From a virus: a stretch of 22,002 bases of DNA. The notes under the pieces are model-generated. The model saw only the letters and a list, made by a program, of their open reading frames with translations. It had not been told where the DNA came from and made no database searches. A program made the translations under genes and the position numbers. Position 1 is the stretch's first letter, and every line of letters begins with the position of its first letter. The DNA lies in IMG/VR virus record IMGVR_UViG_3300009164_000394, positions 1 to 22,002 of that record, one strand, 5' to 3'. Below, piece after piece: positions 6,602 to 22,002 of the stretch.

Positions 6602-7163
6602 GTTTATTTGCCGTTATAAATGCTGGTAAATTATCTTTAGTAAGGCGACCTGCCTCAACCTCTTCAAGCATATTACGCAATGCGTCTTCAACAAATTCGT
6701 TAAAGGTCATATCTCGATCATGTGCCATCTTCATGTATTGTAACAGATCTTCATCCGAAAAGTCAACTGGTATTTGCACCCTTGTATCATAATCCTCACC
6801 TGCCTTAATAGCCAAACACTTTTGGATAAAGTCATCTACCACATCCAAATCAACGTAATCAACATCATCCCATGCTTGATTAGCCAGTACACTTTTATGT
6901 TCTGCTTCTTTTTGATGCTTTTCTTGATTCTTTGGATTAATCATACGATATGCACGGTCGTTGGTGTAGTCACACACACTTACTTCATAAACCTTTTGGC
7001 TCTTATTACTGAATACAATACTGAAACTATAGCCACCTGTACCATGAACGCCATTCCAACTATCCAGACTATAACTGTTTGGGCCGTAACAGTCCCAACC
7101 ATAATCACTACCTTCGGTAATTTTATAGTCAACCAATTCCATCCATTCTTTAATTGTAATCAT
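6582..7163 (-). CDS. Phage protein with C-terminal ribbon-helix-helix-like segment
   Basis: 193 residues. The N-terminal part (ITIKEWMELVDYKITEGSDY, then GPNSYSLDSWNG and FSIVFSNKSQKVYEVSVCDY) is a mixed alpha/beta domain of a type seen in large phages, function unknown. From about 128 the pattern changes to RVQIPVDFSDEDLL, then KMAHDRDMTFNEFVEDALRN, which resembles an Arc/CopG ribbon-helix-helix fold: one strand and two helices with a conserved T-x-N-E-F-V turn. This suggests a dimeric DNA-binding or anti-host regulator (inference). ATG overlaps the upstream stop in ATGA. Confidence 0.65.
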   Translation of the reverse strand: MITIKEWMELVDYKITEGSDYGWDCYGPNSYSLDSWNGVHGTGGYSFSIVFSNKSQKVYEVSVCDYTNDRAYRMINPKNQEKHQKEAEHKSVLANQAWDDVDYVDLDVVDDFIQKCLAIKAGEDYDTRVQIPVDFSDEDLLQYMKMAHDRDMTFNEFVEDALRNMLEEVEAGRLTKDNLPAFITANKHEDQVG

Positions 7164-7336
7164 TTAAACACCTTTGAATCAAAAATAATTGCTGAACCCA
7201 GCACAATGAAACATATACCGCCTAATGTGTCTCCAAGAGCTAGACTTGTAACACCGTTTAATACATTCACTCCGCCAACAGTATATCCAATCGTCTTACG
7301 GTGACGACCAAACCATTCAAAAAACTTATCTGTCAT
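7160..7336 (-). CDS. Small membrane protein
   Basis: 58 residues: a basic N-terminus (MTDKFFEWFGRHRKTIGY) followed by two hydrophobic segments (TVGGVNVLNGVTSLALG and GGICFIVLGSAIIFD). It shares ATGA overlaps with both neighbours, so it is a genuine coupled gene despite its size. The topology suggests an inner-membrane hairpin. Function unknown; small phage membrane proteins may act in superinfection exclusion or lysis control, but nothing here decides. Confidence 0.7.
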   Translation of the reverse strand: MTDKFFEWFGRHRKTIGYTVGGVNVLNGVTSLALGDTLGGICFIVLGSAIIFDSKVFK

Positions 7337-7788
7337 AGTTCTAATCCATCCTTTTTTGCTTGTTCTTCAATACGAGCATTACGCTCCGCTTCATGTACAT
7401 CACACAATGTACGCACCCAGCCACCACCTCTGCGCTTGCCTATGCCGCCGCACTCTTCGCAAGCAATGTCGGCCCAGGCTTCTGCCATACGTACCATACC
7501 GTCAACCTTGTCATCACCGCCGCGATAGTAAAAACGTAGGCCGCCAAATTTCTCTTTAATCTGTTCCACAACAACTTGTGGACAACCTTCACCACGATTA
7601 AACTTTTCTTTTTGTTCCTGCTTCCATTCGATATGTTGTTGAATGTTACGACACAATCGTTCAAGTATTGGATACCATCCCTTACCTACAGAAAATCCAC
7701 CATACTTGCTCTCGAACATTTTTGGATAAGATTTCTCCATTCGTTTAGCAAACGTTTCATAGTCTATAAATTCTTGATCTTCGTTCAT
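7333..7788 (-). CDS. Conserved phage protein with zinc-finger-like cysteines
   Basis: 151 residues. The conserved core is VVVEQIKEKFGGLRFYYRGG followed by VDGMVRMAEAWADIACEECG. The C-terminal CEECGGIGKRR with TLCDVH downstream (CxxC ... CxxH) looks like a one-zinc structural finger. Proteins of this kind recur in tailed phages and prophages as hypotheticals. Nucleic-acid or protein binding is a reasonable guess but no enzyme motif is present. Coupled by ATGA overlaps to genes on both sides. Confidence 0.65.
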   Translation of the reverse strand: MNEDQEFIDYETFAKRMEKSYPKMFESKYGGFSVGKGWYPILERLCRNIQQHIEWKQEQKEKFNRGEGCPQVVVEQIKEKFGGLRFYYRGGDDKVDGMVRMAEAWADIACEECGGIGKRRGGGWVRTLCDVHEAERNARIEEQAKKDGLEL

Positions 7789-8036
7789 GTCATCTCCGGC
7801 ACTTCTGAGTAATGGCTAATAATCAAATCCAATGCAGAAATAGTGCGTATATTGCCTGCTACATCTTCTGGATGCAACCAATAGCCATCTGGGTTATCAT
7901 CTGTTTTTGGATTGGCTTTCCACTGTTTCAATTCTTTCTTAAGATACGCACGATAGTCACGTAGGGTAAGAGCTGTAATGCGAGCAGCAGTTTCGCCGTC
8001 GATAAAAACTTTTGGAACGTGTTTTTCTTTGCTCAT
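7785..8036 (-). CDS. Small hypothetical protein
   Basis: 83 residues beginning MSKEKHVPKVFIDGETAARIT, with a basic helix (RDYRAYLKKELKQWKAN) and a C-terminal helix (IRTISALDLIISHYSE). No recognisable domain. Start follows the preceding gene's TAA by one base; its stop overlaps the next ATG. Likely cytoplasmic. Confidence 0.6.
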   Translation of the reverse strand: MSKEKHVPKVFIDGETAARITALTLRDYRAYLKKELKQWKANPKTDDNPDGYWLHPEDVAGNIRTISALDLIISHYSEVPEMT

Positions 8037-8037
8037 T

Positions 8038-8208
8038 TTAATAAGTCTCTTTTACAATCTTATATTCAGTTGTGGGCCACTCGGCTTTGAATTCTTCTGT
8101 CTTAACATATTCATTAAATTCTTTAGCGTTAAAGAACATACGATGAAATACTGTTTTATGATCCAAAGTTGTTACTGTTAGATACATTGATTTTGCTTTG
8201 CCTGCCAT
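8038..8208 (-). CDS. Small hypothetical protein
   Basis: 56 residues (MAGKAKSMYLTVTTLDHKTV and onwards), a likely beta-beta-alpha fold with the phrase FHRMFFNAKEFNEYVKTEEF. The ATG directly abuts the preceding TAA and the stop is one base from the next ATG. This tight packing supports it as a real gene. No function assigned. Confidence 0.6.
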   Translation of the reverse strand: MAGKAKSMYLTVTTLDHKTVFHRMFFNAKEFNEYVKTEEFKAEWPTTEYKIVKETY

Positions 8209-13756: not shown

Positions 13757-15166
13757 TTAGATATCGTAGCGTGGGACCATTACAGCCTTAAGCATGATAC
13801 CTTCTGGAGTGAATTGATCCATATCCGCTGACAGCAAGGCTGTCATGATGCTTGGGCTAAATCCACTTACCAATGCGGCACCACTCTTGTCTGACGCAAC
13901 AGGCACATTGTCTGAACTGTTTAGGTTCCAGAAAACAATCTGTGGCATGCTGTAGCCTGCGGCTTCGAACTTGCGTTCGATCATTTCCATTGCGCTGTCG
14001 TCGTGCTTGGCGCATTGGTTGAACTGCATGTCTGACAAGATCAGCAACATGGCTGGCATGTCGCTTGCTGGTACTGAACCCTTAACCGCCACGTCTAGAA
14101 TCTTGTTCATAGCCGCGTTTAGGTTAGTGCTCATTTCCCAGTCGCTCTTGGACATTTGGGTTACCTTGTCAACAATGTTACCCTTTAGAGTAACCAGTTG
14201 TGGCATGCTGGAGAAAGTCAAGAATGTGTCCTTGAACACGCCCTTGTTCTTATCTGCCAAGTACAAGCCAAGGCTAACCGCAACGTCCAAACAACGTACT
14301 TGTGTGTTCTTACCTGCGGCGCAGGTCATAGAACCACTTACGTCAACTAGAGGTAGGATACTTGCGTCACCTACGTAGTTTGGCAGAGCGTCCCATTGTG
14401 CAATCACATGGTCAGTTTCTGTCTTGTCCAGCTTGGTGTAGCTGTGAGCGATTCCCTTCAGCACGTCATGTGGGAAGATTGCGTTGGCGTTAACTTTCAC
14501 AGTCTTATCACCACTTACCAACTTGGCCACATATTCTGCGAACAGAGTTGTGTGACGGTTGAATGCCTTCTTGTAGTTGCGTGACGCAACAGAAGGTACG
14601 TGACTGAAGTTAATGTTGTCCCAATCTCCTGCACACATTTGTGTTTCAACAACCTTTGTAAGACCAACTAGGCTCTTACGGTATTGCTTTGGAGTCATGC
14701 CAAAGAAGGCACGAACTTCGGCCGCGATCTTACCCTTACGAGGAGTCCACTTTGCTGCCAAGCCGTTTTGCGCACGAAGAGCATCGCCCAACATGGTGTA
14801 AGCGGCTGACTTTAGGTCAGGGTTGGAGAAGACAAATATGTCATCCCAACGACCAACTTCTGGAATCTTCTTTAGAAGAGCCAAAGCGGCGTCTGGGTCA
14901 CGCTTTTCTAGATGAACTAGAATGTCGCGGAACAGTTGACGTTCACCTGCACCACCACGGACATCACGTGCCCATTGTGCAATGCGTAGTGCAACGTCTG
15001 AGTTTTCCACATAAGCGGCTGTGAAGTCGCCTGTGATGTCCTTACCACGGCTTGCGCCGATCTTGTAGAACAAGTCAACTGTGGCCTTAGCTGTTGACTT
15101 ACGAGCCTTCATACCGTTTGCGGTACGGGCTTCTTGATTTGCTACTGCGTTTACAAATGCGTTCAT
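13757..15166 (-). CDS. TROVE-like / DUF2828 protein with vWA domain (Ro60-like)
   Basis: 469 residues. The N-terminal helical-repeat part contains ALRIAQWARDVRGGAGERQLFR (about 59-80) and IPEVGRWDDIFVF (about 101-113), the hallmark wording of DUF2828 and of the related TROVE domain of Ro60. The C-terminal half is a von Willebrand A fold with a full MIDAS: DVSGSM at 275-280, T347 in WEMSTNLN, and D379 in LILSDMQF. Ro60/Rsr proteins are rings that bind Y RNAs and misfolded RNAs and work with exonucleases. DUF2828 members are uncharacterised, so an RNA-binding role is inferred. The gene looks richer in G+C and in AAG/AAC codons than neighbours, suggesting high expression. AAAGGT precedes the ATG; upstream lies an array of structured RNA modules. 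Confidence 0.85.
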   Translation of the reverse strand: MNAFVNAVANQEARTANGMKARKSTAKATVDLFYKIGASRGKDITGDFTAAYVENSDVALRIAQWARDVRGGAGERQLFRDILVHLEKRDPDAALALLKKIPEVGRWDDIFVFSNPDLKSAAYTMLGDALRAQNGLAAKWTPRKGKIAAEVRAFFGMTPKQYRKSLVGLTKVVETQMCAGDWDNINFSHVPSVASRNYKKAFNRHTTLFAEYVAKLVSGDKTVKVNANAIFPHDVLKGIAHSYTKLDKTETDHVIAQWDALPNYVGDASILPLVDVSGSMTCAAGKNTQVRCLDVAVSLGLYLADKNKGVFKDTFLTFSSMPQLVTLKGNIVDKVTQMSKSDWEMSTNLNAAMNKILDVAVKGSVPASDMPAMLLILSDMQFNQCAKHDDSAMEMIERKFEAAGYSMPQIVFWNLNSSDNVPVASDKSGAALVSGFSPSIMTALLSADMDQFTPEGIMLKAVMVPRYDI

Positions 15167-15181
15167 TTTAATTACCTTTAC

Positions 15182-15236
15182 AGAATGTGTTTTATTTTCG
15201 ATTATAGTTGAAATTTAAAGTTGCTGTTAACATTCT
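15182..15236 (-). ncRNA. RNA module M1 of the covarying-helix family (in leader of the TROVE-like gene)
   Basis: On the minus strand, AGAATGT and ACATTCT (15230-15236 and 15182-15188) form a 7-bp closing helix, and TAACAGCAA follows the 5' arm. It ends 16 bases before the ATG of the TROVE-like gene, just ahead of its ribosome-binding site. The third pair is A-U rather than G-C as in other modules, still paired. Confidence 0.55.
15201..15230 (-). promoter_or_regulatory. Possible promoter of the TROVE-like gene, inside module M1
   Basis: Minus strand TTAACA (15225-15230), 18-base spacer, TATAAT (15201-15206). The -35 box is part of the module's conserved TAACAGCAA motif. Transcription from here would start inside M1 and omit its 5' arm. 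Confidence 0.5.
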
Positions 15237-15247
15237 AAAACTTTAAC

Positions 15248-15473
15248 AGGATGATCGTGCCAATTTGTTTATTTTCTGGTCTGACCAATTACAGCACTCA
15301 GACCCTAACAACAATTCATGTTGTCTATTACATGTTCGTCTGTATGTAAATCATATTCCAGATTCTCCGGACCTATCTATTCCATCAGTGTCTATTTCTA
15401 GAAAGCATTTCTGCCTGTCCTCCGACCACCTTCTATAGCATTAAGATGTAGTTTAAATTGCTGTAGTCATCCT
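15248..15473 (-). ncRNA. RNA module M2 of the covarying-helix family
   Basis: 226 bases closed by AGGATGA (15467-15473) with TCATCCT (15248-15254). CTACAGCAA follows the 5' arm. Internal hairpins include GGTCTGA/TCAGACC (15278-15284 with 15298-15304), TTACAT/ATGTAA and ACAACA/TGTTGT. No open frame with a plausible start fills it. At the M2/M3 junction, an alternative hairpin GTCAT/ATGAC competes with the closing helix. Confidence 0.6.
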
Positions 15474-15482
15474 ATGACTAAC

Positions 15483-15646
15483 AGGATCGTTGTTGACTGC
15501 TTTTATTTTACTCAGGCCATCACTCTGAGCTTGTTGGTGTGTTCCAATAGTCTAGCTTCAACGCTCGGTGTTTTTACGCACTCTGCTCCACTAACTACCA
15601 CAGTGACCAACGGTTCATAGTATATGAATGTTGCTGTACCGATCCT
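15483..15646 (-). ncRNA. RNA module M3 of the covarying-helix family
   Basis: 164 bases closed by AGGATCG (15640-15646) with CGATCCT (15483-15489). GTACAGCAA follows the 5' arm. Internal pairing includes ACTCAG/CTGAGx and TTCATA/TATGAA. It begins about 30 bases downstream of the promoter at 15681-15709, so that promoter would transcribe M3 and then M2 as the first products. Confidence 0.6.
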
Positions 15647-15680
15647 AAAACTTCTTAACAAGTTTCCTTGCTATGTATCT

Positions 15681-15709
15681 ATTATAGTACAAATAGTGCT
15701 TGCTGTCTA
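15681..15709 (-). promoter_or_regulatory. Sigma-70-like promoter for RNA modules M3-M1
   Basis: Minus strand TAGACA (15704-15709), 17-base spacer, TATAAT (15681-15686), one mismatch from consensus. No gene start follows within 500 bases; the first product would be the non-coding modules. Confidence 0.75.
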
Positions 15710-15725
15710 TGTATTTTGGTTAAAC

Positions 15726-15774
15726 AGGATACATTTTCTTCTTGGATAAGATTGTAAATTGCTGTTAGTATCCT
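15726..15774 (-). ncRNA. RNA module M4 of the covarying-helix family (short)
   Basis: 49 bases closed by AGGATAC (15768-15774) with GTATCCT (15726-15732). CTAACAGCAA follows the 5' arm. It has little interior and may be a minimal or decayed copy. It lies upstream of the 15681-15709 promoter, so it would be made from the tRNA transcript. Confidence 0.5.
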
Positions 15775-17080: not shown

Positions 17081-17091
17081 ATAACTTTATA

Positions 17092-17426
17092 GGTGCTCTC
17101 TGCCGGAGTCGAACCGCACCCGCCAAACTCCTCATCTTCCTGGCACTCCTTGTTCTTTCTAGAATTGAAAAAGGTTCGTGTTCTCCAGTGTAGTTCAGCA
17201 ACAGAAAGCATTTATAAAGTGTCTAGCTACTCTCACCACAAGAGCCCTAGACTGAGCGGTTACTCTGTCCACAACATTTGTTCTTTTGGAAAAGGCGTTA
17301 TACCTCACCCTAGGCAGTTTCCAGTATCCCCTAAAGAGGGACTGTGAGGTCAGGTCCTAGTGTACCCCCTGTTCTATCGTTTCAGGGACGCTATTTCTTT
17401 AACGTAGAAATAGTAAGACGGGGGTA
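17092..17426 (-). ncRNA. Structured RNA region with tRNA-like 3' part
   Basis: 335 bases without a plausible gene. It starts directly after the tRNA-Asn CCA with a 7-bp helix TACCCCC/GGGGGTA (17363-17426) enclosing CTATTTCT/AGAAATAG. A domain CCTCAC/GTGAGG (17303-17349) follows, then GTCTAG/CTAGAC (17221-17252). The last 118 bases resemble a long class II tRNA: GCTTTCT (17203-17209) pairs with AGAGAGC (17095-17101), followed by ACC. A T-loop TTCGACT is present, but the T-stem is imperfect and no anticodon can be read. tmRNA was considered; its typical 5' end and tag frame are absent. Confidence 0.45.
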
Positions 17427-21891: not shown

Positions 21892-22002
21892 AGGATAGAA
21901 TTTAACATAGTGCTACCGTTACACCAAACCTTGCGGCTACGGAGTCGAACCGTTCCTTTTCTTTTCAAGAGAAGTGTGTTGTTAATTTTTGCTGTTACTA
22001 TC
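21892..22002 (-). ncRNA. RNA module M5 with tRNA-mimic domain (cut by window edge)
   Basis: Closing helix GATAG/CTATC (21998-22002 with 21894-21898; the outer arm continues beyond the window), followed by TAACAGCAA after the 5' arm as in M1-M4. Inside, in 5'-3' order: a T-arm ACGG-TTCGACT-CCGT, a 4-bp stem AGCC/GGTT capped by GCAA, and a D-arm GTG-TAACGGTAG-CAC. The acceptor stem of a tRNA is thus replaced by a small capped hairpin, and the chain ends lie on the anticodon side. Confidence 0.6.

Follow-up and report, generated by a model that had tools for sequence, protein, structure and literature searches.

What kind of RNA is encoded at the extreme end of this viral record, where tRNA-like arms in an unusual order lie inside a dense tRNA gene cluster about 6 kb from a Ro-like gene? 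The window, i.e. the whole stretch of DNA that was analysed, is the entire record of 22,002 bases; the module in question, M5, runs on the minus strand from position 22002 to 21892, and since the record ends at 22002 its terminal helix misses two bases. M5 starts with (AG)GATAG-TA-ACAGCAA, finishes with CTATCCT-GTT and is composed, in this order, of a 7-bp helix, ACAGCAA, an anticodon-like arm, a T-arm, a GCAA-capped 4-bp stub and a D-arm. We use the term handle for the terminal 7-bp helix together with ACAGCAA. The parts of M5 are as follows:

21892..22002, minus strand: M5, read here as a Y-RNA-like tRNA mimic; the 5' AG of its terminal helix lies beyond the contig
21998..22002, minus strand: 5' strand of the terminal helix, (AG)GATAG, with the two leading bases beyond the contig
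21989..21995, minus strand: conserved ACAGCAA motif of the handle
21959..21973, minus strand: anticodon-like arm TTCT-CTTGAAA-AGAA, 4 bp with a 7-nt loop, U33-like
21939..21953, minus strand: T-arm ACGG-TTCGACT-CCGT
21927..21938, minus strand: acceptor-like stub AGCC-GCAA-GGTT, 4 bp, with a GNRA cap
21910..21924, minus strand: D-arm GTGT-AACGGTA-GCAC
21892..21898, minus strand: 3' strand of the terminal helix, CTATCCT, then GTT (AGGATAG on the plus strand), completed in orthologues

The sequence-only reading had described AGGATAG/CTATC ends, an ACAGCAA motif and a T-arm, GCAA-capped 4-bp stem and D-arm in permuted order, and all of these are present on the minus strand; the anticodon-like arm at 21959-21973 had been overlooked. 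M5 is called neither by ARAGORN nor by Rfam, and its single-sequence fold is not more stable than that of shuffled sequence (z 0.02). As this fold energy is unremarkable, the case for M5 rests on comparison.

Further copies of M5, collected by a pattern search, comprise 13 distinct orthologues in other viral contigs, and the alignment with M5 itself holds 14 distinct sequences, among which the T-arm, stub, D-arm and helix hardly vary. The stub is a 4-bp, GNRA-capped stem in all orthologues and its loop is either GCAA or GAAA only. Two compensatory changes are seen on both sides of their stems, one from A-U to G-C in the T-stem and one from A-U to U-A in the anticodon stem, and the anticodon-like loop occurs as CUUGAAA, CUGUAAA or CUGAAAA. 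The AG that completes AGGATAG/CTATCCT is present in every orthologue displayed far enough around the module, and thus the expectation that the two missing bases would read CT on the plus strand holds wherever the surroundings of the module can be seen. A pairing of ACAGCA with UGUU, predicted within M5, was left unused because it is invariant in M5 and fails to transfer to other modules.

M5 could in principle be a functionless decayed or chimeric tRNA left by recombination within the cluster in which it sits, as fusion of the 3' half of one tRNA to the 5' half of the next would yield its order of parts, and a decayed ordinary tRNA had been named at the outset as the outcome that would refute the Y-RNA-like reading. 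This outcome has not materialised: the 13 orthologues conserve M5 with compensatory changes in both the T-arm and the anticodon arm, the handle is common to M5 and dozens of non-tRNA modules, and the M5 type is also recovered in FelixO1 and Bacillus phage FADO. We regard decay as extremely improbable and, as far as comparison of sequences can tell, M5 is not a decayed tRNA. A 7-bp acceptor with CCA or a processing site, as expected of an ordinary or permuted tRNA, is likewise lacking in M5 and is seen in sister modules alone.

The gene to which M5 had been linked, described from sequence alone as Ro60-like, and four more modules with the same ends that lie between this gene and the tRNA cluster (15182-15774), each with a 7-bp helix of its own, are located in the window as follows:

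13757..15166, minus strand: gene of the Ro60-like protein (DUF2828/DUF7788, PHROG 850)
15182..15236, minus strand: short handle module of 55 nt, helix AGAATGT, directly upstream of the Ro-like start codon
15248..15473, minus strand: handle module of 226 nt, helix AGGATGA, cargo unexplained, conserved in relatives
15483..15646, minus strand: handle module of 164 nt, helix AGGATCG, cargo unexplained, conserved beside the Ro-like gene in relatives
about 15726..15774, minus strand: short handle module of 49 nt, helix AGGATAC

The protein matches DUF7788, DUF2828 and PHROG 850 ('RNA-binding protein'); the TROVE family (PF05731) is not among its Pfam matches and is matched in none of 10 related records. 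Its AlphaFold2 model (pLDDT 82.5) finds as best PDB matches exclusively Ro60/TROVE structures, viz., a Trove domain (9kop), the Ro60 of Thermus phage phiLo (9l5y), the Ro autoantigen (1yvr; Z 21.6 over 405 aligned residues) and Deinococcus Rsr (2nvo). Judged by this predicted structure, the protein has the Ro60 fold, a HEAT-like ring plus vWA, and differs from Ro60/Rsr (1yvr, 2nvo, 9l5y) in its identity of only about 12% and in its Pfam family, which is DUF2828/DUF7788 and not TROVE. The earlier description of the gene is thereby borne out, though without a TROVE match. 'Ro-like RNA binding protein' is the name already in use for this family among annotators of mycobacteriophages, and the record of an Ochrobactrum phage refers to similarity to 2NVO by HHpred.

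The position of the 55-nt module (15182-15236) in the leader preceding the Ro-like start codon suggests possible autoregulation. The two larger modules, of about 160 and 225 nt, recur in conserved form next to the Ro-like gene of relatives, for example at L152:7761-7943 and L170:7521-7762, and their window copies (15248-15473 and 15483-15646) match no Rfam family. Elsewhere in the window, at 17091-17420, a T-arm-like end (GGTTCGACTCC, minus strand) adjoins some 300 bases in which no tRNA or tmRNA is called, and is possibly part of an unrecognised structured RNA.

Is the handle associated with Ro-like genes beyond this record? A scan with the window's Ro-like protein returned 80 related contigs, and a strict module rule (ACAGCAA, a 7-bp helix and GTT) recovers 163 modules in 82 records, all of them in the sense orientation relative to the Ro-like gene, as against 0-12 modules for seven control motifs (six scrambled and one reverse complement). 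The handle is likewise found next to Ro-like genes in phages that infect Salmonella, Listeria, Enterococcus, Staphylococcus, Campylobacter, Bacillus, Mycobacterium and other hosts. In 20 other phages, a perfect Watson-Crick 7-bp partner followed by G exists for 33 of the 56 sense ACAGCAA motifs around the Ro-like genes, compared with 34 of 1,299 permuted motifs (2.6%) and none of 10 antisense ACAGCAA. The partner is present for 4/4 motifs in FelixO1, 3/3 in Listeria P100, 2/2 in Campylobacter PC5, 5/6 in Bacillus FADO and 3/4 each in Mycobacterium Miley16 and Finnry, Enterococcus EA1 and Staphylococcus BE22, and a few phages with a Ro-like protein (DLP_6, Munch and OC) have no module by the partner rule. 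The sequence of the handle helix varies everywhere (AGACCGT, TGGACGC, AGAGAGC, AAGAACG etc.) while ACAGCAA stays constant, which is the pattern that a handle recognised by a protein or through tertiary contacts should be expected to leave in these sequences.

In the absence of binding data, the handle might instead be a processing or stability element for another factor, such as an RNase or a different RNA-binding protein, without the Ro-like protein as its partner, and a precedent is offered by the Class I RNAs of Dictyostelium, which have the same layout and are reported to bind the RRM protein Rnp1A/Cibp (PMC7919456). The strong sense-strand linkage to Ro-like genes in phages of many hosts and the occurrence of a module in the leader just ahead of the Ro-like start codon weigh against this explanation, which we consider unlikely. 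As a separate observation, in Listeria phage P100 (L270:2459-3010 and 6771-8054) the Ro-like gene is preceded by a near-threshold match to ROOL RNA (86 of 99.1 bits) and followed by an annotated tRNA splicing ligase.

How does M5 compare with the tRNA-mimicking Y RNAs of bacteria? YrlA, which Chen et al. in 2014 are said to have described as a bacterial Y RNA, is represented in Rfam by RF02553, and its consensus has, like M5, a terminal stem, a T-arm, a capped acceptor-like stub and a D-arm in that order. M5 thus has the permuted T-arm, stub and D-arm without an aminoacyl stem that characterise YrlA, and both are encoded by genomes with a Ro60 protein, a property met here through the Ro60 fold of the neighbour and the linkage across phages. 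On the other hand, M5 differs from YrlA in its ACAGCAA handle, which is absent from the RF02553 consensus, in its 4-bp GNRA stub, in its separate anticodon-like arm and in the lack of a significant match to RF02553, whose gathering score of 69 bits is not reached. The comparison with YrlA covariance models that had been proposed gives a mixed result, in that sister modules do match RF02553, with 31-48 bits (E 1e-7 to 1e-5; among them EA1 with 47.8 bits, L002 with 41.2 and Finnry with 39.5), yet below the gathering score, and the arm order is shared, whereas M5 itself finds no match. A covariance model of M5, with which stretches of ordinary tRNA score about 18 bits, finds, beyond its close relatives, tRNA-like modules in FelixO1 (61.8 bits, E 8e-12), Bacillus FADO (52.2 bits), Enterococcus EA1 (48.5 bits) and Rhizobium RHph_I1_18 (38.2 bits), and the tRNA-like module thus found in FelixO1 adjoins the Ro-like gene.

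Because RF02553 gives no match, we term M5 YrlA-like and not a YrlA. Points against the Y-RNA reading are this missing match, the location of M5 within a tRNA cluster and roughly 6 kb away from the Ro-like gene, the unremarkable single-sequence fold energy and the unexplained cargo of the 164- and 226-nt modules. The arm order of RF02553, the Ro60-fold neighbour and the FelixO1 match support the reading proposed originally, and on present comparative evidence M5 is best read as a Y-RNA (YrlA)-like tRNA mimic. As the presence of YrlA in phages has already been reported, albeit second-hand (PMC7765460), M5 as such is not categorically new.

The sequence-only reading was right that M5 and the other modules are real; it missed relatives of two kinds, the un-permuted and the anticodon-arm-only forms. 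In the former, tRNAs of normal order have their anticodon stem interrupted by an insert of 38-48 nt; this insert is the handle closed by a GNNA-type loop and followed by CAGCAA or a close variant. Such tRNAs are found in Synechococcus phage BUCT-ZZ01, in Aeromonas phages Ahp1, Aeh1, phiAS5 and AsFcp_2, in Cronobacter phage S13 and Citrobacter phage Ci1 and in the window's own relatives. Removal of the insert gives a tRNA call by ARAGORN in 20/20 cases, none of which is called before removal. Bases 27-29 pair with 41-43 across the insert at 27/30 positions in ten distinct combinations, compared with a mean of 14.3 for shuffled partners (1 in 10,000). Most insert-bearing tRNAs duplicate an isoacceptor that the same genome also encodes in ordinary form (Asn GUU, Met CAU and Gly UCC; three complete phages). 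A search of bacterial genomes with the insert pattern gave 22 scattered matches.

Insert-bearing tRNAs missed by ARAGORN were noted at L082:9614 and 9745, L084:9931 and 10054, L085:11766, L007:4515 and L078:1754 and in L108-L111, and some of them are annotated as pseudo or undetermined tRNA. One at L024:3290 reads CUA (amber) as its anticodon once joined; BUCT-ZZ01 also has a call for an ordinary tRNA with CUA (L241:18826).

In permuted modules of the relatives the tRNA body is opened at the handle, and a spacer (TCCAT, TTCAT or longer) closes it at the acceptor. Frequently the acceptor has 7 bp and the anticodon is a good one, for example Arg UCU, Cys GCA, Met CAU or Gly UCC; nine of these modules keep near-complete 7-bp acceptors and sensible anticodons. 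Since the linear and permuted forms have the same tRNA body, with the handle growing from the anticodon stem, they are circular permutants of one object, and M5 is the version in which the acceptor has shrunk to a GNRA-capped stub. In permuted tRNA genes, known from Cyanidioschyzon and others, the 3' half precedes the 5' half. The phage modules likewise have the 3' half first, and the sister modules L002, L014 and L073 keep 7-bp acceptors. M5 departs from permuted tRNA genes in that it has no full acceptor or CCA, shows no evidence of splicing and has its ends held by the shared handle. No paper on phage tRNA introns or permuted phage tRNAs turned up in the literature that was searched.

These forms raise the alternative of a small intron: the handle would be excised from the anticodon stem of canonical-order tRNAs (at 29/30 or 31/32), the exon ends of the permuted forms would be joined as in permuted tRNA genes, and the modules would be precursors of functional or circular tRNAs. 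The 20/20 tRNA calls upon exon joining, the nine permuted modules with near-complete acceptors, an Rnl2-type RNA ligase in 7/7 complete phages tested and, in Listeria phage P100, a tRNA splicing ligase annotated some 1.3 kb past the Ro-like gene speak for an intron, as does the pairing across the insert, though the latter is also expected if the handle is a mere side helix. However, the GNRA-sealed 4-bp stub of M5 and a UUCG cap in L037 make a usable acceptor impossible, most spacers lack CCA (TTCAT), the inserts occur mostly in duplicates of ordinary isoacceptors, no uninterrupted homologue of the insert-bearing tRNAs is seen among the loci examined, RtcB is absent from the 12 records tested and the anticodon-arm-only modules yield no tRNA. 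An archaeal-type bulge-helix-bulge motif was sought by eye in the inserts and no conserved pairing of intron ends was seen; a search for the Rnl1 family gave no match and is uninformative. An intron is not excluded for the full-acceptor forms, but as an account of the handle it appears rather unlikely. For M5 the Y-RNA reading is preferred, since a stable tetraloop seals its acceptor, bare anticodon arms make no tRNA, insert-bearing tRNAs mostly duplicate isoacceptors and the motif tracks Ro-like genes.

The second group of relatives consists of many modules of about 55 nt that hold an anticodon arm only, with an example also in Pseudomonas phage Milchi. Anticodon-type hairpins with a 7-nt xU...AA loop are present in 34 of 94 distinct short modules, where shuffled cargo gives 2.3 on average (maximum 7). 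The commonest arm, TTTGA-CTTTTAA-TCAAA, reads as that of tRNA-Lys(UUU), and further ones resemble the arms of Thr, Cys, Tyr, Ser, Arg, Trp and Glu tRNAs.

Short modules also resemble the Class I RNAs of Dictyostelium, which are 42-65 nt long, have a stem conserved in structure and not in sequence, an 11-nt motif adjoining the 5' stem and AAG/CUGU ends, and are reported to be unique to dictyostelids (PMC7919456). The likeness lies in the short terminal stem, the ACAGCAA-containing motif by the 5' stem and the CUGU end; a terminal stem, ACAGCAA and a CUG(U) 3' end are met in M5 as well as in the short modules. The short module at L203:616-669 gives the best match to Rfam family RF01414 (Dicty_Class_I_RNA), with 40.7 bits where 41.5 would be required (E 5e-7 for 121 bases, without a composition-matched control), and further matches score 34.8 and 30.9 bits. 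No phage module reaches the gathering score, and the M5 orthologue in L005 gives no match. Besides L203:616-669, resemblance to RF01414 was noted for L104:4266-4320, L197:13032-13086 and the 49-nt module of the window. Class I RNAs differ in being amoebal and in their reported RRM partner, and M5 is longer and tRNA-like. A single ACAGCAA-handle class that comprises phage Ro60-associated RNAs and Dictyostelium Class I RNAs, is bound by Ro60-fold DUF2828/DUF7788 proteins and carries in phages whole tRNAs, permuted tRNAs or bare anticodon arms as decoys is a tentative idea that we hold to be possible and no more, as the likeness may be due to homology, a shared partner or convergence.

Based on these comparisons, we hypothesize that M5 is a YrlA-type, Y-RNA-like phage RNA whose handle binds the phage Ro60 and whose sealed tRNA-like body occupies tRNA-binding enzymes. 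We consider this fairly likely, with both the binding and the decoy role being inferred; in the absence of binding data, M5 is probably a Ro60-bound phage Y-RNA-like tRNA mimic. The handle would serve as the binding site for Ro60, which may stabilise the RNA and tether its tRNA-like body. With a sealed acceptor end, M5 can neither be aminoacylated nor serve in translation, and it may occupy tRNA-binding enzymes instead, an inference made without expression or nuclease data. Its likeliest role, inferred and not demonstrated, would be that of a decoy or bait for host anticodon nucleases or of a guide for tRNA repair or degradation, and the anticodon-arm-only modules (often tRNA-Lys UUU) and the handle-bearing canonical tRNAs would be other forms of the same device. 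A decoy role has been suggested for Salmonella YrlA (PMC7790460), and an anticodon-nuclease decoy is the most economical idea for these mimics, again by inference.

As a phage YrlA-like RNA M5 is ordinary, and it is the surrounding family that varies the known kind in a new way, with the handle inside the anticodon stem of canonical tRNAs and the anticodon-arm-only modules as seemingly new extensions. The handle inserts explain phage tRNA genes annotated as pseudo or undetermined in Ahp1, S13, Ci1 and B23, and the short modules point to a possible link with the amoebal Class I RNAs. Canonical tRNAs, complete permuted tRNAs, mimics without an acceptor (M5 among them) and isolated anticodon arms all share one and the same handle; this series offers a route by which the tRNA mimicry of Y RNAs could have arisen, and the family points to a testable function as an anticodon-nuclease decoy or a repair scaffold.
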